From assembly GCF_002866925.1 (NCBI RefSeq), contig NZ_PKUQ01000031.1:372001-436000 (forward strand): a DNA stretch of 64,000 nucleotides. The letters are read 5' to 3'. Source of the stretch: Cohaesibacter celericrescens (lineage in GTDB: Bacteria; Pseudomonadota; Alphaproteobacteria; Rhizobiales; Cohaesibacteraceae). A program made the translations under genes and the position numbers. This document shows, piece by piece, positions 30,726 to 54,193 of the stretch (the stretch's first letter is position 1; the number at the start of each line of letters is the position of its first letter). The notes beneath the pieces were generated by a model that saw only the letters and a list, made by a program, of their open reading frames with translations, was not told the DNA's origin and searched no databases.

Positions 30726-31149
30726 TTTTATCTCCGTTCCGTCCGGGCTCCTAGACATAATGTCAATGGGTCCGTCTTTTATCAGTCAGTGAATGGGATG
30801 CCAGATTTCGCTTTTCAATCAAATGGTTGTCGATTTCAAAGCGAACAAGCAAATAGGCGCGGGTTGCTTCCCCACGCCATGACTTGAGCCGCACTATAAT
30901 GAGACGTGATGCAGAGTCAAGAAAAAGCTGGGGCAAAAGGGCTATTTTCAGCCGTTCTCAACCGCAACTGGATGAGTGGATCTGGTTGCTTGCTTGGCGT
31001 TTGAAGTCGTCTACTCTGAATTTGAGCGTGCTATGTGCATTGGGCGGGGGATTTCTCTTCCTTGTGGCTTGAGCTTGCTGATGGGGCTGTGTATGGTCCG
31101 ACCACCTTTTTGGGCCTATGGATCACCACGGTTCCGCCCAAAAATATGC
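30726..31149. other. Gap between rplU and tRNA-Ser
   Basis: No convincing gene. It must carry the rplU-rpmA promoter on the minus strand and the tRNA-Ser promoter on the plus strand. The last 66 codons of the recombinase frame begin inside tRNA-Ser and run antisense through the right part of this gap to 31031. A plus-strand frame at 30884-31072 has no coding character. Confidence 0.4.
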
Positions 31150-32770
31150 GGAGAGGTGCCGGAGTGGTCGATCGGGGCGGTCTCGAAAACCGTTGAGCGT
31201 GCAAGCGTTCCGAGGGTTCGAATCCCTCTCTCTCCGCCATTTCTTTTTCAGATAGTGAAACACCCCCTAACACCTTGAATGGCAAGGTGGTTTTTGGGGT
31301 TCGAAAACCTTCGTTCCTGCAGAACTCTAATTTGTCCGCAAATGTGAGTCTCAAGACCAATTTTCTCACTCCCAATTGACCCGAAGCCCATAGTATTGCT
31401 GGGTTTTTTAGGAATTGCAGTGAGAGTTCGAAAATCTCCTCGAATGTACCCTGCGGCTTGCCTGCTTTTTGCGCCTTTTCTTCCAATACCAGTTTTTGAT
31501 TATGGAGTGCGGTGACGCGGTCTTCATATTTAGCAATGAGCGGCTTTGAATCCGTTTCGACGATACGATCCATGAAGTTCTCAATCTGGACATCAAGGCG
31601 CTTCACCTGCGTGACAAGCTGCTTCTTGATCTCATGGGCTTGCGCTAGCCGTTGATCCCAAATGCTCTTGAGCATGGCTCTGGTGAGCTTCACGAGCGAA
31701 GGTCCGGGCGAAAGCTCGGCGAGCAATTCTTCAAATTGTCCCTCGATGACATCGCGTCGAATGGATTTGCGATACTCAGGGCACCCTTTTGAGAAACAAA
31801 AATAATAGGCGTGTTTCTTACCTGTCTTGCTGGTAGACCAGCAAGAGGTCATAAGCTTCCCGCAACAGCCACAGGAAACCGTCCCGCGAAGCGCAAAGTC
31901 GGCGCGGATATCAGGGCGTGCGGCGGTCTTTGCGCCGCCCAACAAGCGATCTTGAATGCGTTGGAAGGTCTGAAAATCAATCAGCCCTTCATGCTGCCCC
32001 TTGTGCAGAGGAATATCCCACTCAGCTTTTCCAACATATCCCGCATATATGGGCTTGGTCAGAATGTCGTTGACCCGCTGATTGCGAACCTCGCCCTTTT
32101 TGTTTTTTGGGAAATCAGGCTGGCTTTCAAAAAACCGTTTCACTTCTGCTTGGGTCTGGAAGCGTCCTGAAGCGTACCCTTCTAGAGCTTCCTGAATGAT
32201 CGAAGCATAGGGTTCATCGCGTTTCAGCATTTTACCCCGACCGGGCACTAACTCAAACCTATAGCCAATGCAGTTGATAAATGGCCAATAGCCGTTGCTC
32301 AGCCTTGCCCGCATACGGCGCTCGGTTTGTTCACCGTTCTGCTCACGCTGATGCTGCATGATGGAAGCCATAAGGTTTTCGATAAGTTTGGCATTTGGGT
32401 CTTCTCCAAACTCCATCGTCGGACTTTCAAGCCGCCCTCCGGCCTTGCGGATAGCTTCATGTAGTTCGATATGTGTTTTTAGTTCACGCGCCAGTCGGGA
32501 GATGTGATCAATGATAATCACAACCTCACCGCCACGACTGTGTTTCTTGACAAAACGCAGCATATTTCTCACTTCGTGACGGTCTAGCAATTTGCCCGAA
32601 GTTGCCTTGTCTTCAAATGTGGCAATGACTTCATACCCATATAGGCGTGCATAGTCGTGGCAGGTTGTCTTTTGAGACTCAATGCCGTGCCCTTTTTTCA
32701 TCTGGGCTGGGGTAGATACACGGGCGTAAATGACGGCTTTTTGCGGCTTTGGCGCTTTTTGTTCATTCAT
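31031..32770 (-). CDS. int: Large serine recombinase (integrase), frame crossing the attachment site
   Basis: 579 residues as integrated. The N-terminal resolvase domain has the catalytic serine in VIYARVSTPAQ and VVIIIDHISRLAR. A recombinase domain (about 160-280), a zinc ribbon (SCGCCGKLM ... CFSKGCPEY) and a coiled-coil (about 370-460) follow. Residues up to about 513 are encoded by the element. The last 66 (REGFEPSERLHAQRFSRPPR onwards) are antisense tRNA-Ser and flanking chromosome, so the tail is an integration product. In the circle the frame would give a 545-residue protein. The start at 32770 overlaps the preceding small gene by 8 bases. Confidence 0.93.
   Translation of the reverse strand: MNEQKAPKPQKAVIYARVSTPAQMKKGHGIESQKTTCHDYARLYGYEVIATFEDKATSGKLLDRHEVRNMLRFVKKHSRGGEVVIIIDHISRLARELKTHIELHEAIRKAGGRLESPTMEFGEDPNAKLIENLMASIMQHQREQNGEQTERRMRARLSNGYWPFINCIGYRFELVPGRGKMLKRDEPYASIIQEALEGYASGRFQTQAEVKRFFESQPDFPKNKKGEVRNQRVNDILTKPIYAGYVGKAEWDIPLHKGQHEGLIDFQTFQRIQDRLLGGAKTAARPDIRADFALRGTVSCGCCGKLMTSCWSTSKTGKKHAYYFCFSKGCPEYRKSIRRDVIEGQFEELLAELSPGPSLVKLTRAMLKSIWDQRLAQAHEIKKQLVTQVKRLDVQIENFMDRIVETDSKPLIAKYEDRVTALHNQKLVLEEKAQKAGKPQGTFEEIFELSLQFLKNPAILWASGQLGVRKLVLRLTFADKLEFCRNEGFRTPKTTLPFKVLGGVSLSEKEMAEREGFEPSERLHAQRFSRPPRSTTPAPLRIFLGGTVVIHRPKKVVGPYTAPSASSSHKEEKSPAQCT
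31150..31239 (+). tRNA. tRNA-Ser (anticodon CGA)
   Basis: 90 nt including an encoded CCA. Acceptor stem GGAGAGG / TCTCTCC, a long variable arm typical of class II serine tRNAs, anticodon CGA within GGTCTCGAAAACC, T arm GGGTTCGAATCCC. Reads codon UCG. Its 3' end is the integration site of the mobile element, whose 13-bp core restores the last 10 tRNA bases, so the tRNA stays intact. Confidence 0.96.
31230..31242 (+). repeat. Left attachment core of the mobile element (attL)
   Basis: CTCTCCGCCATTT, the last 10 bases of tRNA-Ser plus TTT. The same 13 bases occur at 54181-54193 in the same orientation, next to the mobilization genes. The recombinase gene runs across this site. A reading-frame test of the joined ends (see findings) supports these as the true ends. 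Confidence 0.85.
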
Positions 32771-33041
32771 TGCTAGCTCCGTCCTCCTCATGTGCTTCAG
32801 CCATAGACAGCAATAGAATATCAAGAACTGAGGCTTTGTCGCCAGATGCTAATTGAAATGGATGTGTTCCGAAGCCAAAATCAGCGATTTGAACGAGGAG
32901 ATTCCAGTAACATTCAAGAAATTCTGCTACTTCGTGATCGGATAACTGGAACTCATCCAGATAATGCGCAAAAGCTTCGGCGTTGAATGTGATGGGTTGG
33001 GCGGTCGGGGTCGTGATGGTTGGGTCTGGCGTCTGGTCCAC
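32763..33041 (-). CDS. Small acidic protein upstream of the recombinase, unknown
   Basis: 92 residues, not recognised. Acidic (pattern DEFQLSDHEVAEFLECYWNLL), predicted helical, no membrane segment. It starts at GTG 33041 after GAGGAG, and its end overlaps the recombinase start by 8 bases, so the two are translationally coupled. It may be an accessory or directionality factor of the recombinase by position only. Confidence 0.6.
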   Translation of the reverse strand: MDQTPDPTITTPTAQPITFNAEAFAHYLDEFQLSDHEVAEFLECYWNLLVQIADFGFGTHPFQLASGDKASVLDILLLSMAEAHEEDGASNE

Positions 33042-33240
33042 TTGTTTTCTCCTCTATTTTTCGTTTCGGCTCCTTTTCTTAAAATGGAACATATAGAGAA
33101 CAAGCTAACGGATTACCGCACCAAAATGCAAAGTATTTCTGTGAAATTATTCGCTATGTACCGAACAAAGGAGTCAGATAAACAGTAACTAAGGGCTGTA
33201 GAGCAGACGAAGGTAAAATAGGTAATCTGGGTAATTCGAT

Positions 33241-34173
33241 ATGACTGATTTTGAGAACTTAACGCCTGCGGAAAGGACTTTGTTGCACCAAGTCATCAAG
33301 CGCTTTCTCAGAACAGACAAGCGACTTATTCGGGGCAATCGCCATTGGCAGACACTGTTTGAAGCAGCCTATAACGGAAGAGTCGTCGGCCAGGATGACT
33401 TCAAGAACCTTGGCAAGGGCACGCTTAGCAAAGAAAAGGCCTGCCTCGTTTACGAGTGGTTGTTGGAGCACCGCCCCAAGGTAATTGGTGATTTCAACGC
33501 GGAGTTGATGAAGTTAGCCGACGAAAAGGACGATCAGGAAAGGCGCGCCTCTCGGCTTCATTCACTCACCAACAATCGGTCCAATGGGTTGCCTCCCATC
33601 ACTTGGGATGGCCTTGTGCTGGACAAGGGCATTTTTGGCTCGGTTGATATCCGCTTGGTTCAACCGCAGGATATGGAACCAGAACAACTCGAAGAGGTTT
33701 TTCCGCTTCCTCTCAGAATGCCTGACCTATTGAGACCAGCGGAGTCAGCGGTTCCTTCCAAACTGGTAGATCACGACCCACTCTCTAAAACCGTGGTGCC
33801 TTTGAAGGAAGAGTTCTATTTCGAAATCAATTCTCCCGAGCCCTGTCATGTCATAGGCTTTCAGCGCATTACCCCACAATGGGAACCCTTGATACTGAAT
33901 ACCAACAACACCTTCATGTCGTTGTCACAAGGTTCCAATCTCGCTCCTGTAGATGATCAAGGATCGCTTGCGCCACTCATTGAGCGCGAACAAGCACGCC
34001 GCCATAAATTCGTGTTCGTCGTTTCAGCTGATGAGCTATTGTTCCGGTTTGGGCGGCAAGTTTCAGGAAAATGGCAGATTGACGACATGCTGATGGATGA
34101 GTTTGCGGTAGCATTGAACGAACTGCAATCGACATGGCAGATATTGCGGATCGACGTAATGTTTAAGGAATAG
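33241..34173 (+). CDS. Protein of unknown function, 310 aa
   Basis: Not recognised. The N-terminal third is helical and basic (LLHQVIKRFLRTDKRLIRGNRHW), the middle is a Pro/Glu-rich linker (about 125-190), and the C-terminal part looks like a beta-rich domain (EFYFEINSPEPCHVIGFQRI, ILNTNNTFMSLSQGSNLAP, KFVFVVSADELLFRF) with a faint pattern resemblance to DUF4384-type domains that I cannot verify. No signal peptide or membrane segment. It is divergent from the recombinase operon and upstream of the defense operon. No good ribosome binding site is seen before the ATG. Confidence 0.6.
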   Translation: MTDFENLTPAERTLLHQVIKRFLRTDKRLIRGNRHWQTLFEAAYNGRVVGQDDFKNLGKGTLSKEKACLVYEWLLEHRPKVIGDFNAELMKLADEKDDQERRASRLHSLTNNRSNGLPPITWDGLVLDKGIFGSVDIRLVQPQDMEPEQLEEVFPLPLRMPDLLRPAESAVPSKLVDHDPLSKTVVPLKEEFYFEINSPEPCHVIGFQRITPQWEPLILNTNNTFMSLSQGSNLAPVDDQGSLAPLIEREQARRHKFVFVVSADELLFRFGRQVSGKWQIDDMLMDEFAVALNELQSTWQILRIDVMFKE

Positions 34174-34644
34174 CCCCCGCCAACAATGTTGTCGGCCCTT
34201 TCACCCACCCGTGACGCTATTGCGTCAGGCAGGCCGGTGTAAAATTGAAGCATCAATCTGAATCGATGCTCGGCCTGCTAAAGGAATATGTGGAAAGTCC
34301 CGTTGCCGTGACTTGAATTTGGTATGTGCGGACAGGTTCATGAACCGTGGCTTGAACCGTGTCATAAAAGATCATTCTCAGCTTTTGATCAGCTTCGTGT
34401 GTTCTGCAAGATGTGTGTGGTAGTACCACACCTCTTGGCAAGGGGAACCCGCTGGCGCGTTCCCCGTTGCATCCCCTCCGGCCTCTTTGGTGTGACTATC
34501 GGCATTTAGCCTCACCCAGCCACACAATCGCATCGCCGATTGATTACTCACCAAGTGCGCATCCGTGGATATGAAAGCGTATTATGTACCGCTGGTGAAG
34601 GCTTTGGCCTTTCACTTTGTGGTCACATTGGATACACTGCCCTA
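34174..34644. promoter_or_regulatory. Leader/promoter region of the defense operon
   Basis: 471 bases without a supported gene. It contains a 17-base dyad GTGTGGTA-G-TACCACAC at 34415-34431 (perfect 8-bp arms), and about 20 bases further a hairpin GGGGAAC ... GTTCCCC. The dyad is a good candidate operator for the RHH protein encoded immediately downstream; this is inference from position and symmetry. Confidence 0.45.
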
Positions 34645-34833
34645 ATGACGGGAAAAGATGCTGGGTTTCGCATCCGAGTGGAGCGCGACCTTCGAGACAA
34701 GTTCATTGAAATGTGTCGGGCGAAAGACCGTCCTGCCGCTCAGGTTATTCGTGACTTCATGCGGCAATACATTGAAGAAAACACCGCTGCGAACGACACG
34801 GAGGCGGTCAATAAACAAAAGGGGCATTCGTGA
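34645..34833 (+). CDS. Ribbon-helix-helix-like small protein
   Basis: 62 residues: FRIRVERDLRDKFIEMCRAKDRPAAQVIRDFMRQYIEEN matches the beta-helix-helix pattern of Arc/CopG-like DNA-binding proteins. First gene of the defense operon; its TGA overlaps the GTG start of hsdM (GTGA). Likely an autoregulator controlling restriction-modification expression, acting on the dyad about 214 bases upstream. The ATG at 34645 is chosen because the RHH fold starts directly after it. Confidence 0.75.
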   Translation: MTGKDAGFRIRVERDLRDKFIEMCRAKDRPAAQVIRDFMRQYIEENTAANDTEAVNKQKGHS

Positions 34834-36842
34834 GCGACATTAAGAATCTGAGCGGCTTTGTTTGGTCGATTGCCGAAATTCTACGCGGTGATCTCAAGCA
34901 GTCTGAATACGGTAAGGTCATCCTGCCGTTCGTCGTGCTTCGTCGCCTTGATTGCCTCCTAGAGAACAGTAAGCAGGCCGTTCTTGAGGCCGAAAAAACG
35001 CTTCCTGAGAATGCCGACGAAGCAACCCGCGATATGATCCTTTTTGGTGCGGTCGGAGGCAACGTGAAAGTCTATAACCTCTCGCGCTTCACCTTTGAAA
35101 GCCTGAAGGGGCAGGACCCCGGACAGCTCCACCAGAACCTTATCGACTACATCATCAAGTTCTCTCCGAATGTACGCGATATCTTTTTGGACAAGTTCCG
35201 ATTCACCGATCAGCTCAAGCGCCTGAAAGACGGCGGCATACTCTGGAACGTATTCGAGCGTTTTTGCGAAGTAGATCTGCACCCTGAGATAATCTCGAAT
35301 ATTGAGATGGGGTATCTCTTCGAGGAGTTGATCCGTCGTTTTTCGGAAATCTCGAATGAGACAGCGGGGGAGCACTTCACCCCTCGCGAAGTCATTCGCC
35401 TGATTGTTGACCTGCTCATTGCCAACGACGACGCGAAGCTCACAGGGCGCGGCATCATTCGTCAGGTTTATGATCCTGCATGTGGAACAGGCGGCATGCT
35501 GGCACTTACTGAGGAGGCGCTGAAGGAATTCAACACCTCAATCCGCGTGGAACTGTTTGGTCAAGAGCTGAACGATGAATCCTTCGGCATCTGCAAATCT
35601 GACATGCTGGTGACAGGTCACGACCCCGAACAGATAGCCTTCGGCAATACGCTTACGCAGGATGCGCATGCGGGCAAGAAGTTTCACTACATGCTTTCCA
35701 ATCCGCCCTACGGTGTGGATTGGAAGAAATATCAAGACCCGATCAAGGCGGAAGCCGAGAACATGGGAATGGAGGGGCGCTTCGGCGCGGGTACGCCGCG
35801 TATCTCGGACGGCCAGCTTCTGTTCCTTCAGCACATGATTTCCAAGATGCGCGACGACGAATACGGTTCGCGTATCGGCATCGTCATGAATGGCTCCCCA
35901 CTCTTCACAGGCGGAGCACAATCAGGCGAGAGTGAAATCCGCCGCTGGATGCTGGAGAATGATTGGGTCGAGGCAATCGTCGCGCTGCCGACTGACCTTT
36001 TCTACAATACGGGAATACAAACCTATGTCTGGTTGTTGACCAATCTAAAGCCCAAGAACCGCCAAGGCAAAGTCCAGCTCATCGACGCATCTGGCGAGCG
36101 CTTCTGGAGGAGCATGCGCAAGTCCCTAGGCTCCAAACGTCGCGAAATTACTGACGAGGCGCGAGCGGAAATCGTCCGTCTCTACGCCGACTTCCTCAAT
36201 GGTGAGAGCGGTCAGAATGATGTTTCAAAGATTTTTGAGACCACCGACTTCGGCTACCGAGAAATTCGCGTCGAGCGTCCATTGACGCTAAATTTTCAGG
36301 TGTCGAACGAACGGCTGGCACGCCTGAGTGACTTCAAGCCCTACACAAAGTTGAACGAGGTCGACCAGAACACCATTCAGGCTGCACTTAAAGCGATGGG
36401 CGACGAGCTATTCACCAATCGGAATGTCTTCGAGAAAGCTTTGACCAAAGCGTTAAAAACGACGGGAATGAAGATCGGCGCACCGATCAAGAAAGCGATC
36501 CTATCCGCGCTTTCGGAGCGTGACGAAGATGCCGACATTTGTACTGATAAGAAGGGTAATCCCGAACCTGACACCGATCTGCGGGATCACGAACTGGTAC
36601 CTCTCGCGGAAGACTGGCGAGAGTACATGGAACGAGAGGTGAAGCCTTTCGTGCCGGATGCCTGGGTCGATGAAAGCTACAAGGATGCCCGCGACGGCGA
36701 GATTGGGCGCGTCGGCTATGGAATCAACTTCAACCGGTATTTCTACCAGTACATCCCGCCACGCCCGCTCGAACAAATCGACGCCGAACTGAAAGCGCTC
36801 GAAGCGGAGATCGCTGGGCTTTTGAAGGAGGTGGCAGCGTGA
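34830..36842 (+). CDS. hsdM: Type I restriction-modification methyltransferase HsdM
   Basis: 670 residues. The HsdM N-terminal helical domain (about 1-150) is followed by an N6-adenine methyltransferase with SAM motif VYDPACGTGGML (about residue 213) and catalytic NPPY (MLSNPPYGVDWKK, about 290). A long C-terminal extension (about 480-670) ends in a coiled coil likely to contact HsdS. GTG start in a GTGA overlap with the RHH gene; its own stop overlaps the hsdS GTG. Methylates host DNA at the site chosen by HsdS. Confidence 0.95.
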   Translation: MSDIKNLSGFVWSIAEILRGDLKQSEYGKVILPFVVLRRLDCLLENSKQAVLEAEKTLPENADEATRDMILFGAVGGNVKVYNLSRFTFESLKGQDPGQLHQNLIDYIIKFSPNVRDIFLDKFRFTDQLKRLKDGGILWNVFERFCEVDLHPEIISNIEMGYLFEELIRRFSEISNETAGEHFTPREVIRLIVDLLIANDDAKLTGRGIIRQVYDPACGTGGMLALTEEALKEFNTSIRVELFGQELNDESFGICKSDMLVTGHDPEQIAFGNTLTQDAHAGKKFHYMLSNPPYGVDWKKYQDPIKAEAENMGMEGRFGAGTPRISDGQLLFLQHMISKMRDDEYGSRIGIVMNGSPLFTGGAQSGESEIRRWMLENDWVEAIVALPTDLFYNTGIQTYVWLLTNLKPKNRQGKVQLIDASGERFWRSMRKSLGSKRREITDEARAEIVRLYADFLNGESGQNDVSKIFETTDFGYREIRVERPLTLNFQVSNERLARLSDFKPYTKLNEVDQNTIQAALKAMGDELFTNRNVFEKALTKALKTTGMKIGAPIKKAILSALSERDEDADICTDKKGNPEPDTDLRDHELVPLAEDWREYMEREVKPFVPDAWVDESYKDARDGEIGRVGYGINFNRYFYQYIPPRPLEQIDAELKALEAEIAGLLKEVAA

Positions 36843-38209
36843 TCACCCTTCAGGAACGTGTCCACTCGTCACCACCGCCCGCTGAATGGAGCCTGAACAA
36901 GCTGCACCGCGTTCTTCGGGTGCGGAAGGGTTTCAAGAACATTGGAATGCAGGAAGACAATCTGCTTTCGCTGAGCTACGGCAGGATTATCCCGAAAAGC
37001 ATTGATGCGGCTGAAGGGCTCTTGCCTGAGAGTTTCGAGACCTACCAAATCGTTGAGCCGGGCAACATCGTCATGCGACTCACCGACCTTCAGAACGACA
37101 AGCGCAGCCTTCGACAAGGTTTGGTGAAAGAACGCGGGATCATTACGTCAGCATATGATGCTTTGGAGCTTGAGAAGGGACATGATCCTCGCTTCTGGGC
37201 CTACGCGTTTCTCGCTCTCGATCTGGCAAAATACTATTATTCTCTGGGCGGGGGCGTTCGGCAGTCGATCAAGTTTTCAGACTTTCCGAATGATTGGATT
37301 TCAACGCCAGAATCAGGCACCCAGAAAGCCATCGCGGATTTTCTCGACCGCGAAACTGCTCGCACCGACCAACTGATCAAGAAGAAGCAGAAATTGGTGG
37401 GGCTTTTAGCGGAGCAAAAGTCAGGAGTAATCTCCAAGGCTGTCACTGTTGGGTTGCCTGAACGATTCGACCTTGATCAGACCTCATCGCGCTTCCTGCC
37501 GCGCGTTCCTGTCGGCTGGAAAGTAACGCGGCTCAAGCATCTAGGAAGAATTAGAGGTGGGCTCACTCTAGGTCGGACTATACCCGAGGATACGCCAACG
37601 CAGGCGACACCTTATCTGCGCGTCGCAAACGTACAGGCAGGCTGGGTCGATCTTTCCGATGTAGCAGAGATTGAAGCAACGCAAAGTGAAGTTTCGCGCT
37701 ATTCACTGTGCGCAGGTGATATTCTTATGAATGAGGGAGGTGACAACGACAAGCTTGGGCGGGGGGCTGTATGGCATGCACCTTTCAAACCCTGCCTTAA
37801 TCAAAATCATGTCTTTGCGGTAGCGCCATTTGTCGCGAAACAGGCGGAATGGATTTCTTTGGCAACAAACGCAAAATACGCGAGAGACTTCTTTTATTTC
37901 TACAGCAATCAGAGCACGAACCTTGCGTCGATTTCAAAAACGAACCTTTCTGAGTTTCCGGTGGCAATGCCACCAGAAAGCGAAATGAATAAGATTCTTA
38001 AATGTACAAAAGAACGCCTTTCGAAACTTGAGCTGCTTACGGACACAACCACAAAGTCAATCAACGGTCTCCGTGAGTTCCGCACAGCCCTGGTCACCGC
38101 CGCCGTCACGGGCCAAATCGATATGGCGACCTGGGGTAAGCAAGGGCAGACCGACCGTCGCCTTGATCAGATCGAAGAAGAAATGTCTCTTCGGGAGGCG
38201 CGCGCATGA
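36839..38209 (+). CDS. hsdS: Type I restriction-modification specificity subunit HsdS
   Basis: 456 residues with two target-recognition domains (about 1-165 and 215-385), each followed by a conserved helix: AIADFLDRETARTDQLIKKK and KCTKERLSKLELLTDTTTK. Complete, with both half-specificities. GTG start overlapping the hsdM stop; the stop overlaps the next gene (ATGA). The recognition sequence cannot be read from the protein. Confidence 0.93.
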   Translation: MITLQERVHSSPPPAEWSLNKLHRVLRVRKGFKNIGMQEDNLLSLSYGRIIPKSIDAAEGLLPESFETYQIVEPGNIVMRLTDLQNDKRSLRQGLVKERGIITSAYDALELEKGHDPRFWAYAFLALDLAKYYYSLGGGVRQSIKFSDFPNDWISTPESGTQKAIADFLDRETARTDQLIKKKQKLVGLLAEQKSGVISKAVTVGLPERFDLDQTSSRFLPRVPVGWKVTRLKHLGRIRGGLTLGRTIPEDTPTQATPYLRVANVQAGWVDLSDVAEIEATQSEVSRYSLCAGDILMNEGGDNDKLGRGAVWHAPFKPCLNQNHVFAVAPFVAKQAEWISLATNAKYARDFFYFYSNQSTNLASISKTNLSEFPVAMPPESEMNKILKCTKERLSKLELLTDTTTKSINGLREFRTALVTAAVTGQIDMATWGKQGQTDRRLDQIEEEMSLREARA

Positions 38210-46900: not shown

Positions 46901-47180
46901 AGCGTGCCCGCGCGCGCGCGAAATTGTTGGTACGATTATCCCGCGTGGCATTTCGTTCGCTGTCGGACTAATTGCGCATATGGTTGAGGATGTAGACCCG
47001 TTCGAGCAGCAATCGAATCTGGATCGCCAGTTAGTGGAATGCCTCGGCACGGCAGTACGAAGGGGCTTCAATGATGTGCAGATGCTATTTTTTTCCTCGG
47101 AGAGAAGAGAGCTACTTAGTCGCGTCCAAATACATGAAGCTTGGAAGCACCGGCTAGATGGCGTCTTTGACGAAATATGA
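43941..47180 (+). CDS. Ski2-like superfamily 2 helicase (HamB-like)
   Basis: 1079 residues. A 300-residue N-terminal region without recognised motifs is followed by a helicase core: Walker A ILPTGAGKTTVSS (about 325), DECH box VFDECHLL (about 420), FVNTKRDAV, ATPTLAQGLNLPAQ (about 695) and motif VI AARAGRAGH (about 735). The DExH form with TLAQGLNLPA is characteristic of Ski2/Hel308-like enzymes. A 300-residue C-terminal domain follows. Paired with the HamA-like nuclease, it fits the Hachiman sensor helicase that releases HamA on damaged or phage DNA. It is the last gene of the seven-gene defense operon. Confidence 0.75.
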   Translation: MFDAATANFLRSAPELPGLNPNELPAILTRHYAELASMRLRGAGVETGHEEDDWSLERIADTYELVASLQPEDSARAAAAFVAATAQQILARRQLVTNAEEELPSNIDRDRLDPSLAAAILFLASEQYADANEAAANIQTGRVGQIYEATILSEHIVDLAKGRLTQILERAARWRRPITYVDLDFRALAALLEALSTGIEMLAAQMLRVATPEQTGLRFDTPQNAFERVLAISSSADGIVSDAPDGLIISYAGPYHLASLLLAVARSVPEASLLNTPVPSGSNSEVWEQWLRFRAAEFPYLWSNHRQAIDQEFHQTGVSSVVILPTGAGKTTVSSLKIAGVLARGKKVAFLAPTHALVDQLTEDLQEMFPSELLGSVVSSDFDLLMQEDAVFRDIEVMTPERCLAMLSFAADAFKDVGLLVFDECHLLSPETGKIRRALDAMLCVLGFSHVAPDADILFLSAMLKNGEELAQWLGELTGRKAVAVDLLWKPSRQARGVIIYDDSQLTESRNRALEVQAAENKKKKKEAKDLRAPAKRQLTANPYAIWGLQHNWLSLEESIAHCITTQLLERRVTLSGHIKYGSLQLTPNANQVAIDLAAAAAQHSLKTIVFVNTKRDAVSVANEVSDLLSQKVDISLDEQARWDALEAELGNLKHSLLSGPTSAVPHNSAMLRLERDIAERMFKRPNGAQVIVATPTLAQGLNLPAQLAILAGDKRADTVKGGREDLEAHEILNAAARAGRAGHLANGLVLLIPEPIISFKQGEPLDGNVVQKLQAVLPENDHCVTVADPLEIVLDRLMEGQAIDPDVSYTINRMAILRSMDEVSDATHLFDLRKSLGAFAAKRRKDAQAFDAKVETLRQAITGEEVEDVDQNVALLSSQSGLSAKLLIDLKLRITNDIGSLPTNVTDWLEWMIRWLQEDENARAAILGDIKARILSSCGKSKTAELQKEDLAVLKEALIAWVSGKPLREIEAILGGEPEADPATKKACPRAREIVGTIIPRGISFAVGLIAHMVEDVDPFEQQSNLDRQLVECLGTAVRRGFNDVQMLFFSSERRELLSRVQIHEAWKHRLDGVFDEI

Positions 47181-47370
47181 TGCTAGCTCTGCCTTGGTTC
47201 AATCCCGAAGAAGCCCGCGAAGCACGAACTATGCTGTCCACAGTTCAGTAAGGCCTGATAACTCGGCGCATCCTTCGGTCCGGGCTCTCGTGAACCGAAC
47301 CTGTAGTTTCGGCCATTCGGCTTCGATCCCTTGCGTGCAGGCTTAGGGCTTTGCCCTCAGCGCACTTCGA

Positions 47371-47484
47371 CAAAAATAGATGGTCTCCCGAGGCTCAGGG
47401 TTAACCCTTGCGCCCGCCATCGATTTTTGCCTCCGTTTGCACACCCACCCTCGCCGGAAGGCAGGGGTTGCATGAGCAACCCTT
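47371..47484. promoter_or_regulatory. Nested inverted repeats upstream of ardA
   Basis: The 328-base gap 47181-47508 holds no gene but much dyad structure. CAAAAATAGATGG (47371-47383) faces CCATCGATTTTTG (47417-47429), 12 of 13 paired. Between them lies the perfect palindrome AGGGTTAACCCT (47397-47408). A second hairpin GGGTTGC-ATGA-GCAACCC (47465-47482) is just before the ardA ribosome binding site. It may terminate the defense operon, or act as a single-strand promoter or transfer origin element. Confidence 0.5.
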
Positions 47485-47508
47485 ATCTTCACGGAAGGAA
47501 CAACGGAG

Positions 47509-48015
47509 ATGAACAGTTTTTACGCCCAACCTTATGATATTTCAGCAAACGGCTTCTATTTTGAAACGGAAGAGGAATTCCGCACAAAGAGCGCAGCACT
47601 TCGTAATGACTACGGCGATCCGGTCGAGGAATTTGAAATCCAATTTATCGACGGAGAAATGATCGATGCGGAAGTGTGTAAAGCCATCGGCATCAATCAG
47701 GCCAATATCTTCACAGTCATCGAAAAGCTGGATGAATGGGATGAAGACGACAAGCGGACAATCATCATTGCCGTGGGTGAAGGTGGATATAGTTTTGATC
47801 TGAATGCCAGCGATCCATCGATTTTTGACATTGAGATTTATAAACTAGATTCCATGCGTGAATTGGCCGAACAATTTGTTGATGAAGGGCTGTTCGGGGA
47901 AATCCCTGATCGTTTGGCCTATTATCTGGACTATGATGCTATCGCCCGTGATCTGGCCATAGATTATTGCGAAACGACAATCGATGGTCAGAACCTCATC
48001 TACCGGATGGACTGA
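47509..48015 (+). CDS. ardA: Antirestriction protein ArdA
   Basis: 168 residues, strongly acidic, a DNA mimic that inhibits type I restriction enzymes. Diagnostic segment LAEQFVDEGLFGEIPDRLAYYLDYDAIARDL (shown here only as LAEQFVDEGLFGEIP and YLDYDAIARDL) and a C-terminal EFDL-like acidic face. Preceded by ACGGAG. It protects incoming DNA during transfer, so its place beside a type I restriction operon on the same element is notable. Convergent with the resolvase gene, 3 bases away. Confidence 0.9.
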   Translation: MNSFYAQPYDISANGFYFETEEEFRTKSAALRNDYGDPVEEFEIQFIDGEMIDAEVCKAIGINQANIFTVIEKLDEWDEDDKRTIIIAVGEGGYSFDLNASDPSIFDIEIYKLDSMRELAEQFVDEGLFGEIPDRLAYYLDYDAIARDLAIDYCETTIDGQNLIYRMD

Positions 48016-48018
48016 TCG

Positions 48019-48567
48019 TTATTTCGATAATGCTCTACTTAATGTAGCTGTCGCCACGCCGAAAAGCTTGGCCATCGACGAGATGGTTTCGCCGCTCTCA
48101 ATTGAATCTCGCGAATGTTCGACCTGCGCTCTGGTCAGTTTAAGCGGACGGCCAATATGCACGCCGCGCCGCCGTGCGGCTTCCATTCCCGCCTTTGTGC
48201 GCTCACGGATTTGCTCGCGCTCAAATTCGGCAAACACCGCCAACTGACCATAGACCATGCGGCCAATGGCCGTTGTTGTGTCGATCCCTTGTGTGAGGGC
48301 AATGAAGTCCACATTGCGTTTGCGTAGCTCGTCAAGTAGCAGGAGCAAATGCACTGTGGATCGCCCAAGGCGATCAATCTTCCAAACCACCAGAGTATCG
48401 CCGCTGTTTAGGGAAGCCAGGAGCTCATCTAGCCCTTTGCGTTTTATCACACGACCAGAAACGCCATGATCGCCATAGATGACAGTGCAACCGACTGCTT
48501 TCAGAGCATCAATTTGTAAATCCTCAGTCTGATCAAAATCCGAAACTCGCACATATCCAACCTTCAT
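48019..48567 (-). CDS. Serine resolvase/invertase
   Basis: 182 residues of the Tn3-resolvase/Hin class: catalytic serine in GYVRVSDFDQ, VVWKIDRLGRS, FAEFEREQIRERTKAGMEAARRRG, and a C-terminal helix-turn-helix (ETISSMAKLFGVATATLSRAL). The dyads at 48660-48685 and 48775-48800, just upstream of its start, look like its binding sites. It could resolve element dimers or invert the DNA between them. Confidence 0.9.
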   Translation of the reverse strand: MKVGYVRVSDFDQTEDLQIDALKAVGCTVIYGDHGVSGRVIKRKGLDELLASLNSGDTLVVWKIDRLGRSTVHLLLLLDELRKRNVDFIALTQGIDTTTAIGRMVYGQLAVFAEFEREQIRERTKAGMEAARRRGVHIGRPLKLTRAQVEHSRDSIESGETISSMAKLFGVATATLSRALSK

Positions 48568-48659
48568 GCGTAAAGTCTGGGCTGCGCGTCGAAGAATGAC
48601 CTAGAGTTTTCGCCTTGATCAACTAAGCTAATTGTGGACGAAATATCGTGAATTTTTCT

Positions 48660-48685
48660 CATGCAAAAGGGTTCCCTTTTGCATG
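48660..48685. repeat. hix-like 26-bp recombination site 1 (TT core)
   Basis: Perfect 12-bp arms CATGCAAAAGGG and its complement around a TT dinucleotide. A 26-bp dyad with a 2-bp core is the layout of serine-invertase crossover sites. It lies 93 bases upstream of the resolvase start. Confidence 0.6.
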
Positions 48686-48774
48686 GGCTGATTTCCTTGA
48701 GCTAGAGACGGATATGCCTGATCTACAGCGTTGTGTTATGGTAAATTCAAGCGTAATTCGAAATTACAGCAGTA

Positions 48775-48800
48775 GCAACAAAAGGGAACCCTTTCGTTTC
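48775..48800. repeat. hix-like 26-bp recombination site 2 (AA core)
   Basis: Arms GCAACAAAAGGG and CCCTTTCGTTTC (10 of 12 symmetric) around AA. The inner 8 bases CAAAAGGG match site 1, but the core is AA rather than TT, so the two sites are in inverted orientation with 89 bases between. A smaller dyad GTAATT-CGA-AATTAC lies at about 48752-48767. Confidence 0.5.
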
Positions 48801-49153
48801 TTTGCCGAACCCGCACGATTCATGATTCTCTAAAAACCTTTAGCACGCTGTTCTTATTCACAGCGCTTTCAGGCTGTTCAGGCAGCGGCCCTACGGAAAC
48901 TGAGATTGCCGAATTGGCCGCTACAGCGAACGCGCGATATGCCAAGGTCATGTCAAATGCCACTGGCCGTGAACAAAAGCCAGATAAGGTGCAGGTCAAA
49001 AAACATGATTGCACGCCAGTCGAGGGGAACCGATTCCGTTGTAGGTTTCAGGTGACACTGGTTAATGCCGATACAAATGAGGTCAAATCGCAAAGCGATC
49101 AATCATTGTTATTCGAAAAAACTGGATCGAAGTGGCAGGCCGTTGAGCAATAG
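48776..49153 (+). pseudogene. Putative small lipoprotein, start codon lost or frame shifted
   Basis: The open frame encodes SLKTFSTLFLFTALSGCSGSG, a signal peptide with the lipobox LSGC (Cys at about 48875), then a mature domain of about 90 residues ending KTGSKWQAVEQ. There is no ATG, GTG or TTG before the signal peptide. An ATG at 48822 is one base out of frame, and a single inserted base after it would give a normal lipoprotein start. Either a one-base deletion (or sequencing error) or an unusual start such as ATT 48818 or CTG 48848. A TTG at 48914 would remove the signal peptide. It stands directly upstream of the ArdC-like gene. Confidence 0.5.
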
Positions 49154-49155
49154 GT

Positions 49156-49833
49156 TTGTCAAAAATTGATCTGAATGCTCTTTGCCTGCATAGCCTCACT
49201 GCCGTGACCTATTTGTTGAACGGTGAGCGTGGCGTTTCTCAGGCTGTTATTCCTATTCGATTTAGGCAAATTATCGAAAAACTGCTCACCCAACCTGTTC
49301 CGCATTATGACCCAGATTTTTGGGGCATCGGTCGGACTAGAATGCGTCTGATTGATAATCCGCCTCGCTGGGAGGTGTTAAGCCGTGCTGTTGATTTTGG
49401 TCCTATTCGACGGAATGAAGACGCAGATCAGTTCGTTGCAAAGACTGGTGCGGTGATCCGACATGACGGTGAACAGCCTGAATATGATGCGAACCAAGAC
49501 ATCATAGTTATGCCACCAGATGGGCTGTTCTTCGATACGCCAAATATGACCCGTGAACAGGCCTATTACAGAACACTGTTCCATGAACTCATTCATTGGA
49601 CAGGGGCAGCACACAGACTGGATAGATTGAGTGAATGCTTTTCCGATCCAATTACGCAACGAATTGAAGAAGTTATCGCAGAGCTCGGTGCTGCATTTTT
49701 AATGCACGAGTTCTGGCAAAGTCATGAGCCAATACCCGCACATGCAGTCTATATTCAGCGCGAAATGTCATTGCTACGTTCTCACACCATTTTACCCATA
49801 ATTACCCGAGAACTACCATTGCCCTCCAGATAG
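49156..49833 (+). CDS. ArdC-like zincin metallopeptidase
   Basis: 225 residues. The zinc motif HELIHWTGAAHRLDR (HExxH) with the downstream glutamate in EEVIAELGAAFL is the signature of the metallopeptidase domain of ArdC and polyvalent mobile-element proteins. The N-terminal 80 residues are shorter than the usual ArdC DNA-binding part (DUF1738), and whether they bind DNA is unclear. It starts at TTG 49156, three bases after the lipoprotein frame. ArdC proteins protect incoming single strands from restriction; the role here is inferred. Confidence 0.8.
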   Translation: MSKIDLNALCLHSLTAVTYLLNGERGVSQAVIPIRFRQIIEKLLTQPVPHYDPDFWGIGRTRMRLIDNPPRWEVLSRAVDFGPIRRNEDADQFVAKTGAVIRHDGEQPEYDANQDIIVMPPDGLFFDTPNMTREQAYYRTLFHELIHWTGAAHRLDRLSECFSDPITQRIEEVIAELGAAFLMHEFWQSHEPIPAHAVYIQREMSLLRSHTILPIITRELPLPSR

Positions 49834-49872
49834 AATAATCCTCTCTGTTTCAAGCACAGGAGGCCATAGAAG

Positions 49873-50196
49873 ATGGCTGAGGGGAATGGATCAAACGGAC
49901 CGGGCAAGGCTGATCTGTCATTTTTGCGCGTTGCGTTTCAACGCGGCAAGACATCTCAAACGCCGCTGGATCGACAACCACAAAAAGTTGAATCTCCGCA
50001 TATCTTGCGCAATATCAGGCGGCATAAGCACGTACCTATTCTCGCGCCGAAAGGCGCGATGCGCCAAGGGCCGGATCGGCAAGCTTTCTTACATTATGAG
50101 GGACTGGATCGTGTCGAGGCCATTAAACGCCGCAAGGCGATGGATCGCTCTGCTCAGTTCAATAAAACCAAGTCTGACAAGGATCACGAACTGTAA
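49873..50196 (+). CDS. Small basic protein, unknown
   Basis: 107 residues, basic and low in hydrophobics (KADLSFLRVAFQRGKTSQTP, HILRNIRRHKHVPILAPKG). No domain recognised. A good ribosome binding site (CAGGAGG) precedes ATG 49873 after a 39-base gap from the ArdC-like gene, so it is probably co-transcribed. A nucleic-acid partner is plausible from charge only. Confidence 0.6.
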   Translation: MAEGNGSNGPGKADLSFLRVAFQRGKTSQTPLDRQPQKVESPHILRNIRRHKHVPILAPKGAMRQGPDRQAFLHYEGLDRVEAIKRRKAMDRSAQFNKTKSDKDHEL

Positions 50197-50234: not shown

Positions 50235-52403
50235 TTATTGGTCGAAGACGCGCTTTTCAATGCGAGATTTGAGAGTGGCACGGTGCTTCCATGTCTGACC
50301 TATTCCGATGAACAGCATGACGACAGACCCAATCCAGATAAGCGCAGGCATCCCCGTCACCAAATGACCCCACATTGCCCGTAAATCCGTGACAGGTAAT
50401 TGTAGCAATGCCTGCACAGGGTTGAGATGCTTTGGCGCTGTTTGCAAAAACCCAATGGCCGATCCAAGCAGTAAGACCCCAAACCCTGATCCCCATGCGG
50501 CAGTGGTCAGGATTGCGACCTTGATCCTATGCTTAATTTTGTTGATGCGTTCTTTATTCCACTTTTCCCATTCAAGCCGCTTCGCGCGCCTGTCTGCTGC
50601 GCTTATATCGTTGATGAGTTTTTGTGTTTCACGCGCCAAAGCCTCATTACGTTCCACTTGCTGCACATAAAGGGTTTTGGGCTTCTTGTGATCCGGATGC
50701 GGATCAAATTTACCAGCAAAAACTGGGTCAGAATAATACGCACAGCGTTTGAGCAGCAAGGGCTGCTCTCCAGATAAGAGTGCAACCGCCCTTGGGTTTT
50801 CTCGGGTTCCAAATGCCCGCCCGATCTCGTCCGGTGTCAGCAAGGGTCGTTTATGGATATTTTCAGTTTCGCCCTGACTGGTGGTTCTGGTTGTCGAGTC
50901 ATTTCTGGAGGTGGTCGTGGTCATCGTTCTTGTAGTGGTCGAACTGGTGCTGTGACCACGTTGTGAACTTCCCTGCATTCCCGGCCCCCATGTGGAACTG
51001 GAGTTTTCGCCATATCCCTTGCTGGTACTGAACCCTTCCGAGAATGAGCTGCCTGTTCCGTATGTATATCCGTTGGAGCGGCTATTGTTTTTTGCGGTAC
51101 GGATCACTTCATGCTCCCCAATCAGTTTTGACACATAATCGCGGGTGAAGTGGTCATCATTGCCGAAGAATAATCGCACACCAGAATTGGCCAGAAATGT
51201 CTCCCAATTATCCTTATAGACGGATTTGAGCTGCACGAGCGTTTGCGTCACAAACATCATCTTCACGCCAAACCCTGCAATCTGGGCCGCTGCATTCTCA
51301 ATCGTTGGCATACGATCCAGCCCTGCAAATTCATCCAGCACCATCAACACAGCATGCCCGCAGGCGGGTTGCTGTTTAATCCGTTCCATCTCAGTAATGA
51401 CCATGCTGGTCATCATTCGCAACCAACGATGATGCGTGGTCATAAAGCGTTGCGGGAGACTGAGGTAAAGGGTCACGCCGTTGGGGTTGAGCTTAAGTTC
51501 CGACAGATCAAAATCAGATCGGGTCAGAACTTCCTGCATGGCTGGGCTATCCAAAAACTCCGTATTGGTGGATGCGACCTGCATAAGCGAAGCCAAGGTT
51601 TTAGGGGATTGATCGGAAAGATTGGCGAGTTGCTCCCCACTACTGGCAACAATACCGCCAAAGGCCGGATTACGGCGCATGCCTTCGAACAGAAGTTCAA
51701 ATCCACTCGGAATATGATCGGCGGCATCATTCTCCAACATGCGGCGCATATCCGCTTCGCCAGCGAGCAAAAGCCTGCGCAGTGTGATGAGGTTGCGTTG
51801 ATGAGGTTCATAGTCTTGTGCACTGACCACATGCAAGATCACAGCCTTAATGAGGGTGCGTGCTGCATCTTCCCAAAACGGATCACCGCTACTCGCCTTG
51901 ATGATCATGGCATCTGCAATACGTGCCGCATCATCGATGGATTCCGGAATATCTGGATGCAGCATATCCAGCGGATTAAACGCAGCCTTCAAGTCCCCAA
52001 ACTGATCACCGTCGCGGTGCACTGTGTGAAACGGATCAAGTATAAGTATTTTTTGCCCAAGTCCGGTGCAATAGGCTGACCCATCGCCGCGCCGTCTGGC
52101 AGTTACGATGGCATTTTCCCCCTTTGGATCGATCACCACCGCCGATCCCTGCCAAACAGATAAATTGGGAATAATAACGGACGCCCCTTTGCCGCCACGA
52201 GCGCCACCATTGACGAAGATGTGACGACCATCCCTGATCCCGATGGGACGATCCTGATCATCCCGCATCAGCCAGAAATCGCCGTCACTAAAACGCGGAC
52301 AGGCATTGGCTGGAAAGCGGTGCCATGCAGCAGTTCCAAGCGGGCGCTCTCGCAATTCCTCAAGACCAGTCATCAATTCAGCCATCCAGTTTGTATCAGG
52401 CAT
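50235..52403 (-). CDS. VirD4/TraG-like type IV coupling protein
   Basis: 722 residues. Walker A NGGARGGKGASVIIPNL (about 70-86), VVIDPKGEN, Walker B VLMVLDEFAGLDRMPTIE (about 365), and FVTQTLVQLKSVY are typical coupling-protein motifs. A Ser/Thr-rich segment (about 450-520) follows. No transmembrane helix is seen at the N-terminus, where coupling proteins normally have two; instead two hydrophobic segments lie near the C-terminus (VAILTTAAWGSGFGVLLLG and ALIWIGSVVMLFIGIG). It starts at ATG 52403 after AAGGAGGAAA, 16 bases after the relaxase. Confidence 0.92.
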   Translation of the reverse strand: MPDTNWMAELMTGLEELRERPLGTAAWHRFPANACPRFSDGDFWLMRDDQDRPIGIRDGRHIFVNGGARGGKGASVIIPNLSVWQGSAVVIDPKGENAIVTARRRGDGSAYCTGLGQKILILDPFHTVHRDGDQFGDLKAAFNPLDMLHPDIPESIDDAARIADAMIIKASSGDPFWEDAARTLIKAVILHVVSAQDYEPHQRNLITLRRLLLAGEADMRRMLENDAADHIPSGFELLFEGMRRNPAFGGIVASSGEQLANLSDQSPKTLASLMQVASTNTEFLDSPAMQEVLTRSDFDLSELKLNPNGVTLYLSLPQRFMTTHHRWLRMMTSMVITEMERIKQQPACGHAVLMVLDEFAGLDRMPTIENAAAQIAGFGVKMMFVTQTLVQLKSVYKDNWETFLANSGVRLFFGNDDHFTRDYVSKLIGEHEVIRTAKNNSRSNGYTYGTGSSFSEGFSTSKGYGENSSSTWGPGMQGSSQRGHSTSSTTTRTMTTTTSRNDSTTRTTSQGETENIHKRPLLTPDEIGRAFGTRENPRAVALLSGEQPLLLKRCAYYSDPVFAGKFDPHPDHKKPKTLYVQQVERNEALARETQKLINDISAADRRAKRLEWEKWNKERINKIKHRIKVAILTTAAWGSGFGVLLLGSAIGFLQTAPKHLNPVQALLQLPVTDLRAMWGHLVTGMPALIWIGSVVMLFIGIGQTWKHRATLKSRIEKRVFDQ

Positions 52404-52419
52404 AGCTTTTCCTCCTTGT

Positions 52420-53703
52420 TTATCGACCGATGTTCGGTGATTGGGATTGATCACGGGCGCGTTGCCGTTGTTCATGGCGAACAGAGATCATCTCATTGCG
52501 TTGCAATATGCCGATGATCCGACTGCGCAGATCAGCGCGTTCGCTCCGATGGACAGAGCGTTTCTGCTCGAACTGCCGTTGTAGGTCTCGGCGCTCTCTC
52601 AATTGTTGTTTGAACAGGTTCTCGCGCTGTGCCTTGTCGCGAGTGAAACAGCGGTAAGCTTCACTCTCATTCTGCTTGCGTATATCCGCCGCACGGCCTG
52701 TCAGCTTGTCCCAGACCCCCATCAAACCTGTACGCAGTCGATCAACGCGCTCTTTATGTTCGCGCTTTTGCCGCTGTTCTTGTCTTGATTGCAACAGCGC
52801 ACGCTCTTTGCGGTGCGCTTTCACCATTTCTCGTTTGTGCGCGATGAGAGGTTCAAGCTCTGTGTGTTGTTGATCGCGTATGCCGTTCGCATAACCCTGC
52901 ATCTTGTCAGAGATACGGGCGCGCATTTGCGCCCTCACTTCATCGAGTGAAGGAATATCTTCGGGCGATCTAAGCTTGGCTTTGATTTCCTTGGTTTTGA
53001 CACCAGACCAGCGAGCGACGGAATAAATTTCACCTTGCAGATCAATGGCGACAAAGCCTCGCCGATCACCCCGTGCAAGGAAATAGCCATGCTCGGCCAA
53101 GGCAGAGGCATAGGCTTTTAATCCATCTGATCGTTCCCAGCATGAGTGAAAGACTTGTTTAATTTCTCTCGGATCGAGATCAATGCGTTTGGCTTGTTGC
53201 CATTCTGCGAGCGTAAAGTTGAGCGGATCACGCCAACCATTGGTTTTATGGCCATCCGGCAATTCCCAGCCATGGTCGAGATAGAGCTCCTTTGAAAGCC
53301 CAGCCAGCTTGGTTTTGAAATGCGGCAGATTGATTGCCTTCATCTCGCTCACATCAATGCGCGACCACACCGCATGAGCATGGCGGCGACCTTCTTTTTC
53401 ATGAATGACGATGGCGCGGGGCTGATCATCTAGCCCCAATGCCTGTTCTGCCCGATCCGCAGCATCGACCAGATCGTCAATACTGGCGTAGGCATTTTTT
53501 GGAGGGTTGAGGCTCAGGGAAAATAAAAACTGTTTGCAGCGTGTGCCTTTGGACACGGCATGGGCTTCATCCAGTGCGCCATGCAGATCATCGGCCATGA
53601 AACCGCGTAACTCGTATGTGGTGACATGGTCGTTGTCATAGGCATTCATCAGATGTGCAGATAGCTGCGCTGCGCCGGAGCGTTGCGAACCTTTCAGGAT
53701 CAT
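52420..53703 (-). CDS. Relaxase / mobilization nuclease
   Basis: 427 residues. The histidine-triad motif HAHAVWSRID (HxHxxW form) in a MobA/VirD2-like relaxase domain (about 1-180; catalytic Tyr probably in the first 35 residues, e.g. NAYDNDHVT). The C-terminal half is a very basic coiled coil (RKERALLQSRQEQRQKREHK). It nicks oriT and pilots the strand. Starts 3 bases after the mobC stop. The exact MOB family is not decided. Confidence 0.9.
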   Translation of the reverse strand: MILKGSQRSGAAQLSAHLMNAYDNDHVTTYELRGFMADDLHGALDEAHAVSKGTRCKQFLFSLSLNPPKNAYASIDDLVDAADRAEQALGLDDQPRAIVIHEKEGRRHAHAVWSRIDVSEMKAINLPHFKTKLAGLSKELYLDHGWELPDGHKTNGWRDPLNFTLAEWQQAKRIDLDPREIKQVFHSCWERSDGLKAYASALAEHGYFLARGDRRGFVAIDLQGEIYSVARWSGVKTKEIKAKLRSPEDIPSLDEVRAQMRARISDKMQGYANGIRDQQHTELEPLIAHKREMVKAHRKERALLQSRQEQRQKREHKERVDRLRTGLMGVWDKLTGRAADIRKQNESEAYRCFTRDKAQRENLFKQQLRERRDLQRQFEQKRSVHRSERADLRSRIIGILQRNEMISVRHEQRQRARDQSQSPNIGR

Positions 53704-53706
53704 TGA

Positions 53707-54087
53707 TCAACCCCTCTTGCCAAGAGCATGGAGAAGTTGGTTCCGCATTTCATGAATATCGGCACATGCGTTTAACAGACGGGATTTTGTCTCATCATCG
53801 AAATAGAGATTGCCTATTTGCGCAGCCGCCGACAGCTCGGCCAAGTTGCGCGCAATTCCAGTCCGACCCATGACACCCAAAACACCAGCAATCGCCTTGC
53901 GATCAAAGGTGATGGTTTTGGGCGTGGCTCTATACTGTACGGCATTGTCGGAAAACAACACCGACTTCACATAGGTGGATAATGGCAACCCGCCCGAACG
54001 CTGCGTGAGACTATCCCGCTCTTGATCGGTCAAACGGATGGAGAGCGGTGAGAGACGTTTTGAAGGAATTGGATTGGAATTGGTCAT
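53707..54087 (-). CDS. mobC: MobC-like relaxosome accessory protein
   Basis: 126 residues: an N-terminal ribbon-helix-helix segment (LSIRLTDQERDSLTQRSGGLPLSTYVK) and a MobC C-terminal region (RNLAELSAAAQIGNL). It helps open oriT for the relaxase. As integrated, its upstream DNA is the element end and then foreign chromosome. In the joined circle its ATG overlaps the stop of the recombinase frame (ATGA). Confidence 0.85.
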   Translation of the reverse strand: MTNSNPIPSKRLSPLSIRLTDQERDSLTQRSGGLPLSTYVKSVLFSDNAVQYRATPKTITFDRKAIAGVLGVMGRTGIARNLAELSAAAQIGNLYFDDETKSRLLNACADIHEMRNQLLHALGKRG

Positions 54088-54180
54088 TTGCCCAACTCCT
54101 CAAAATCAATATCAGCGTGCTTTAATTGATGTTCCCAATCGGCCAAAACCTCGAAAATAGCGTTCGAACTATCCCCCGAG

Positions 54181-54193
54181 CTCTCCGCCATTT
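54181..54193 (+). repeat. Right attachment core (attR)
   Basis: CTCTCCGCCATTT, an exact copy of the tRNA-Ser end at 31230-31242, 94 bases upstream of the mobC start. It marks the right end of the element; chromosome resumes after it. Confidence 0.85.

Follow-up and report, generated by a model that had tools for sequence, protein, structure and literature searches.

A bacterial serine integrase gene that is predicted to be completed and joined to mobilization genes when its integrative element forms a circle

We analyzed a window of 64,000 nucleotides (nt) from Cohaesibacter celericrescens (contig NZ_PKUQ01000031.1, positions 372,001 to 436,000), which contains an element of about 23 kb, at 31243-54193 of the window, inserted in tRNA-Ser(CGA). 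The element has its own integrase, a tRNA target with 13-bp direct repeats and its own relaxase (PF03432). A Pfam scan of 16 larger open reading frames (ORFs) of the element revealed no mating-pore families of a type IV secretion system; it did reveal a coupling protein. Because these 16 ORFs hold no mating-pore genes, the element is an integrative mobilizable element (IME), and its excision as a circle and its transfer are predicted. It very probably belongs to a widespread family in which the attachment site attP lies inside the integrase gene (int), so that the circle completes int with a conserved 3' part, which we call the tail, and joins it to the mobilization operon. The features of the locus are collected in Table 1.

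Table 1. Features of the element and its insertion site, in window coordinates
Feature	Position	Strand	Basis
tRNA-Ser(CGA), integration target; 3' end belongs to attL	31150..31239	+	ARAGORN
attL core CTCTCCGCCATTT, 13 bp	31230..31242	.	Sequence repeat; relatives for boundary
attR core CTCTCCGCCATTT, 13 bp	54181..54193	.	Sequence repeat
Large serine integrase frame, integrated state, 597 amino acids from mechanical TTG at 32824	31031..32824	-	ORF and Pfam
Host-derived integrase C-terminus, integrated state (antisense tRNA-Ser and chromosome)	31031..31229	-	Relatives show the same kind
Small conserved ORF, 92 amino acids, immediately upstream of int	32763..33041	-	ORF and tblastn
Presumed promoter region of the orf-int(-mob) operon	33042..33240	-	Inferred from divergent gene arrangement
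Cargo: type I restriction-modification, GmrSD-like, helicase, ArdA, small resolvase, PolyVal zincin, unnamed ORFs	33241..50196	.	
Coupling protein (T4SS-DNA_transf / TraG-D)	50235..52475	-	Pfam
MobA/VirD2-like relaxase (PF03432)	52420..53703	-	Pfam
MobC/NikA-like accessory gene (mobC); start is the ATGA that closes the tail	53707..54087	-	ORF
Tail, the putative detached integrase 3' part, MAESSGDSSNAIFEVLADWEHQLKHADIDFEELGK and stop, from the core to TGA 54086-54084	54084..54191	-	Conserved in relatives

Pfam analysis of the integrase placed three domains above their cut-offs: PF00239 (Resolvase), PF07508 (Recombinase) and PF13408 (Zn_ribbon_recom). With a Resolvase catalytic domain followed by Recombinase and zinc-ribbon domains, the protein is a large serine integrase, and its likely start is the ATG at 32770-32768, downstream of the mechanical TTG. 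A first-pass annotation of the window had described both 13-bp cores and had noted that, in the integrated state, the int frame on the minus strand crosses the core into antisense tRNA and chromosome; these observations were reproduced, the stop lying at 31031. When the two ends of the element were joined in silico, the frame stayed open, ending in SLSEKEMAESSGDSSNAIFEVLADWEHQLKHADIDFEELGK and a TGA (54086-54084) that overlaps the mobC ATG (54087-54085) as ATGA, again as described. The accompanying argument that such a junction is very unlikely to arise by chance was overstated. In simulations over points and frames, 80 of 1,110 joins also arrived open at the ATGA; mobC itself begins with ATGA, so a frame that enters mobC in this register necessarily ends at that point. 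For ORFs of 100 amino acids or more with an ATG as start codon, an ATGA start with at least 35 open in-register codons upstream was found for 9 of 92 in the window and for 235 of 1,382 in the 80 relaxase loci described below. Taken alone, the window junction is a coincidence at the level of about 7 to 17%. Since it is weak by itself, relatives were needed, and it is the comparative data that establish the arrangement.

Integrase relatives were drawn from 61 genomes, from the genomes with relaxase relatives and from a scan of 397 genomes of the order. A total of 120 integrase loci were examined, and we excluded 7 duplicates, 7 loci without the integrase C-terminus, 2 with the frame broken near its end and 10 with no tRNA within 150 nt. 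No stop preceded the CCA end of the tRNA in 93 of the 94 distinct integrase genes that adjoin an antisense tRNA, and 84 of these 93 read through it in the frame NTG-G. The 94 integrases target tRNAs of 22 anticodon types (Ser, Arg, Leu, Thr, Val, Phe, Tyr, Ala, Gln and Met). Because the genes read through the CCA end, their integrated C-termini are antisense-tRNA peptides (for example, MAERxGFEP), which vary with the target. Judging from these integrated gene copies, protein records of the family with GFEP-type ends probably carry host-derived C-termini; such an ending would be host antisense-tRNA sequence and not the enzyme's own end.

At the opposite end of the element, the tail recurs in relaxase relatives as a short open frame directly upstream of mobC, with the peptide motif SNxLFEELxxWNxxLK. 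A profile made from 17 hand-picked seeds detected it in 58 of 80 named relaxase loci, which are the best 80 of at least 580 relatives. The taxa that carry it are Rhodobacteraceae, Hyphomicrobiales and other Alphaproteobacteria, and it was also present in records labeled, by their titles, Gammaproteobacteria, Nitrosospira, Nitrospira and Nitrospinae, several of which are metagenome-assembled genomes. The tail stop and the start codon of a mobC-length ORF share an ATGA in 45 of the 58 loci. From core to stop the tail is 33-69 codons long in the 19 named elements measured and 35 in the window. Across 30 aligned rows one L and one W are invariant; many tails end in RGPxP, and that of the window ends in LGK. 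Pooled over 37 overlapping close pairs, the proportion of synonymous differences (pS) was 0.49 and that of nonsynonymous differences (pN) was 0.14, values to be read with the sharing of sequences among pairs and with a selection (profile-chosen tails, divergence below 0.30) that favors conserved tails somewhat. One pair, L075/L064, combined a pS of 0.89 with 85% amino acid identity. This pattern of codon differences indicates that the tail peptide is under purifying selection.

No convincing Pfam family was found for the tail; one family gave an E value of 0.048 in 2 of 30 members, and another gave 0.067 in 1 of the 30. A structure predicted for the L064 integrase C-terminus with its tail was of low confidence (mean predicted local distance difference test [pLDDT] of 55.8; predicted template modeling score of 0.32). 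It contained a helix over residues 84-102, which hold the conserved motif, with a block pLDDT of about 68-73; the model is too poor to show how the tail packs. Of 57 loci whose genomes encode a strong family integrase (E < 1e-60), 52 have the tail; where the genome encodes no family integrase, 2 of 9 loci have it (Fisher P = 3e-5). This comparison covers 71 of the 80 loci (L068, L078, L096, L103, L105, L110, L119, L120 and L137 were left out), and 5 loci from genomes with a decayed integrase only were kept outside the Fisher test. By this measure, the occurrence of the tail goes with the presence of the integrase.

In order to determine whether the two parts match in frame, the ends of 36 elements that have both ends on one contig were joined in silico, the join being anchored on the tRNA 3' end. 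Some of these integrases are incomplete or contain stops (L054 and L180). Among culturable bacteria, Afifella marina DSM 2698, Poseidonocella pacifica DSM 29316 and Hyphobacterium indicum 2ED5 each have an element with its two ends on a single contig. With the best anchored match, int and tail were joined in frame in 33 of 36 elements. An unanchored search for the longest common word as the core gave 28 of 36 and picked wrong words in several pairs; the anchored count is preferred. Where the core was at least 6 nt, 32 of 33 joins were in frame. At this core length, 28 of 29 were in frame where int reads NTG-G, and 4 of 4 were in frame where int reads the neighboring frame. The agreement of frame class between int and tail in these 28 and 4 elements (Fisher P = 1.2e-4) implies that the tail frame follows the integrase frame. 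The passage of the int frame through attP to a stop on mobC in the circular form is thus a conserved design of the family, borne out by the in-frame joins, by the ATGA overlaps and by native junctions.

Such native junctions were found in both states. In G009:C132 the integrase C-terminus continues directly into tail, mobC and relaxase, and in G005:C6, of the same genus, an integrase 95% identical (495/520 nt) continues into antisense tRNA-Arg(ccg). The two sequences are identical over 130/130 nt up to and including the core GAAATGGCGC, and they match at 19/90 over the next 90 nt. Contig NVUX02000118 holds a tandem array: one integrase C-terminus reads in frame into tail, mobC and relaxase, and about 19 kb downstream of it lies another integrase, which terminates in tRNA-Thr(cgt). 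As read from these contigs, both junction types, int-tail and int-antisense tRNA, occur in nature. The scan of the 397 genomes with the fused C-terminus, in which at most 11 candidates were scored per genome, returned one full fused match, G009:C132. A partial match in G279 was rejected as a natural fusion; it is a tRNA-Thr read-through.

The boundary of the element was located by comparing close tail loci. In 13 pairs, the shared DNA began at the TGG of the core in 7, 1-3 nt earlier in 4 and 9 nt before the TGG in 1; the thirteenth pair is the L065/L066 tandem. From these starts, the element boundary, and with it the crossover point, maps to the antisense CCA end of the tRNA or to its immediate vicinity. 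By the same evidence from relatives, the essential part of the 13-bp core is probably this antisense CCA end, TGGYG.

Several observations weigh against this interpretation. The first-pass annotation had proposed a search for relatives whose integrase ends in the tail. Three natural in-frame fusions (L063, L064 and the third, L108, from Roseobacter cerasinus) bear that check out, but the integrase is truncated or damaged upstream in all of them: those of L063 and L108 lack the N-terminal part, and that of L064 ends at the contig edge and has an internal frameshift and a stop. No natural in-frame junction found had an intact full-length integrase. Among the in-silico joins, the in-frame pair L202/L138, one of the 33, rests on 4 matching nt, and the pair L182/L085, with a 7-nt core, is out of frame. 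The pairs L058 and L055 were dropped before the 36 were counted, having no integrase C-terminus or usable core, and related elements in the counts are not independent events. The tail was not found at the profile threshold in 22 of the 80 named relaxase loci. No empty site was found in 10 relatives of the genus at tRNA-Ser(CGA) (L277-L286), none of which had a match to the right flank of the window. In L065, a full-length, stop-free integrase match adjoins the tail out of frame, as does a decayed integrase in L066. Since the L065 integrase most resembles those of the other frame class, we read this locus as a likely mixed tandem, and L066 is probably one too; under a strict frame rule L065 can also be counted as a contrary case. 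As a side observation, L065 and L066 suggest that frame class affects the compatibility of neighboring elements.

Searches for the circular or unoccupied states elsewhere gave the following. Scanning IMG/VR for MobC, for the fused C-terminus and for Int gave no match. In plasmid records, the integrase search had no match of at least 60% identity among the best 20 of 55, and the relaxase search had one, over 53% of the query, among all 14 matches; no natural plasmid form of the element was found among the plasmid-record matches listed. The right flank (54194-55300) matched 14 of 18 genomes of the genus, the window's own included; the other matches had 68-71% identity, and none began before base 219 of the query. 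A tRNA was absent from all 15 right-flank loci fetched. The DNA directly after the CCA of tRNA-Ser(CGA) differed in each of the 10 genus relatives, and the locus is likely an insertion hotspot.

Sequence evidence covers the split of the gene, its frame, the conservation of the tail, the element boundary and both natural junction types; we infer that the circle yields a single transcript, that mobilization expression is low in the integrated state and that the tail has a function while the element is circular or in the recipient. In the mechanism that we propose, the integrase gene has no stop at its own end of the element, and its conserved last part lies at the opposite end, usually joined to mobC by ATGA. 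Upon excision, the two parts of int would meet at TGGYG, the antisense CCA end, and Int would gain its conserved C-terminus. The circle would then carry orf-int-mobC-relaxase-coupling protein behind the int promoter, and in sequence terms these genes are predicted to form one operon there; mobC, relaxase and coupling protein are closely spaced downstream of the tail. Integration would replace the C-terminus with a host-encoded antisense-tRNA peptide and would part the mobilization genes from the int promoter. The first-pass annotation had proposed the operon and overlooked that excision would also swap the integrase C-terminus and that the tail is a conserved protein segment. Because the excising enzyme would come from a template without the tail and the integrating one from the circle, conservation of the tail suggests that it acts in circle-bearing donor or recipient cells, and that it most likely serves integration and not excision.

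A further step, tentative and with a less than even prospect, is that this constitutes a state switch, in which recombination by the integrase edits its own C-terminus and one DNA joint sets recombination direction, integrase form and transfer genes. In the circle (in the donor after excision, in the recipient after transfer), the tailed Int would favor integration or prevent reexcision; in the integrated form, Int with the host antisense-tRNA end would be permissive for excision. The same edit would turn the mobilization operon on or off.

Four other explanations were weighed. That the window junction is a coincidence, an ordinary tRNA read-through by the integrase with an unrelated open frame before mobC, draws on the simulated joins (80/1,110) and on the ORFs in relatives with such a start (235/1,382), but the arrangement recurs across tRNA targets and many taxa, and a naturally joined form exists; the G009/G005 junction, the 33 of 36 joins and the read-through in 93 of 94 integrases speak strongly against it, and we regard it as extremely improbable. 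It is also very unlikely that the tail forms a small gene of its own, begun at the core NTG and driven by host signals while the element is integrated, with an incidental frame match to int. The core does supply an NTG codon in the common frame, and a Shine-Dalgarno (SD)-like motif lies at a suitable distance in 6 of 32 host flanks, compared with 8% of random stretches and 2 of 32 int ends, so that host motifs may contribute in a few hosts. Such a gene would, however, take its start context from host DNA, and an SD-like motif is missing from 26 of the 32 flanks. Moreover, int stops before the core in 1 of 94 cases, the frame classes agree in 32 of 33, and natural int-tail fusions exist.

The two remaining explanations concern what the joint is for. 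If the tail were a mere translational leader that moves ribosomes from int into mobC, its peptide sequence would be idle. A leader would fit the mobC-length ORFs that begin at an ATGA overlap in 45 of the 58 loci, as well as an SD-like GAGGAG within the window tail, but the amino acid conservation (pS of 0.49 against pN of 0.14, with the invariant L and W in 30 rows) exceeds what a leader needs, and the low-confidence model places a possible helix over the motif. We consider this explanation unlikely. Somewhat less improbable, though still not what we expect, is that host or internal promoters drive the mobilization genes whether or not the element is integrated, in which case operon assembly would add only the coupling to Int. 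Host promoters could read in, and a consensus scan of 53900-54420 gave a single minus-strand promoter-like match, at 54284-54257 in the chromosomal flank, in line with chance (0.8 expected per shuffle). Against this, the scan revealed no promoter-like site inside the tail, where a promoter in 54088-54180 would have contradicted the first-pass annotation; the flank holds two terminator-like sites on the same strand (0.5 expected); and the analogous transfer genes of Tn916 need circularization (PMC11658703). By analogy with Tn916, then, the mobilization genes would be low or silent when integrated. No minus-strand consensus promoter was found upstream of int (33042..33240), and the int promoter is presumed.

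The nearest known systems are the archaeal suicidal integrases, phages with attP in a repressor gene and Tn916. In archaeal suicidal (SSV-type) integrases, attP lies in the integrase gene, and integration splits the gene to both ends of the element, cutting a tyrosine recombinase into inactive N- and C-terminal parts; self-disrupting recombinases are described there as exclusive to archaea (PMC8371274). By sequence, the window element likewise appears to have its att site within the integrase gene. Unlike the archaeal enzymes, its integrase has serine recombinase domains, and this bacterial serine integrase would lose a C-terminal tail only, gain a host-made one and have its tail joined to mobC. 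In BPs-type integration-dependent immunity, attP lies in a coding sequence, and the circular form encodes a longer protein, with 33 extra residues in BPs (PMC4557955). As in the window family, integration alters the C-terminus (PMC4557955, PMC9934374), but the BPs-type gene encodes a repressor and its tail is an ssrA-like degradation tag ending in AA, whereas the window gene encodes an integrase with a tail ending in LGK. In Mycobacterium tandem prophages with attP in repressor genes, a mixed tandem is possible only with different frames, a requirement (PMC9934374) that resembles the case of the probable mixed tandems L065 and L066.

In Tn916, a promoter at one end drives the transfer genes at the other end only after circularization (PMC11658703), and the gene arrangement of the window element would fit such circle-only transcription across the joint. 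The two differ in that Tn916 relies on transcription across the joint with antitermination (PMC11658703), whereas in the window element a reading frame spans the joint, probably with coupled translation. In synthetic fusions of serine integrases to recombination directionality factors (RDFs), the fused factor can steer the direction of recombination (PMC5737554). There, too, a protein part is fused to a serine integrase, but these fusions are man-made and carry a full RDF; a directional role of the window tail is a hypothesis. The filamentous phage XacF1 also has attP inside an ORF that is divided on integration, but it is XerC/D dependent, and the ORF that is divided may encode a phage regulator (PMC5666396). 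A review of IMEs mentions serine-integrase IMEs in Clostridia and other Firmicutes (PMC5704250). We found no description of the int-tail-mobC arrangement in the open-access literature among the matches listed, searched by titles and abstract openings. The arrangement would be a bacterial serine-integrase counterpart to the self-splitting archaeal integrases, in which the exchange affects both a conserved tail and an in-frame joint to mobilization genes. If true, it would explain how small mobilizable elements could sense their integrated state, and it would offer a natural system for how C-terminal parts steer serine integrases, a class of biotechnology tools.

The remaining genes of the element were also inspected. 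The mobC protein of the window had a weak NikA-like match (E = 0.12); 2 of 6 relatives scanned exceeded the MobC cut-off, and 1 of those 2 also exceeded the NikA-like cut-off. The small ORF upstream of int overlaps the likely int start by 8 nt (ATGAATGA). By tblastn, 52 of the 87 integrase loci contain a match to it at E ≤ 1, and for 48 of these loci the E value is below 1e-3. It had no Pfam or NCBIfam match at E ≤ 0.001; its product is a candidate directionality or regulatory factor. Its relatives show sequence of the DLSDxxKREFIETLWSIVVxFVDLGFG type. The element also encodes a second, small serine recombinase consisting of the resolvase catalytic domain alone (48019-48567, minus strand). The cargo at 33241-48015 resembles a defense cluster, with type I restriction-modification genes and an embedded GmrSD/HEC-06-like gene, together with a HamB-like helicase and an ArdA antirestriction gene.

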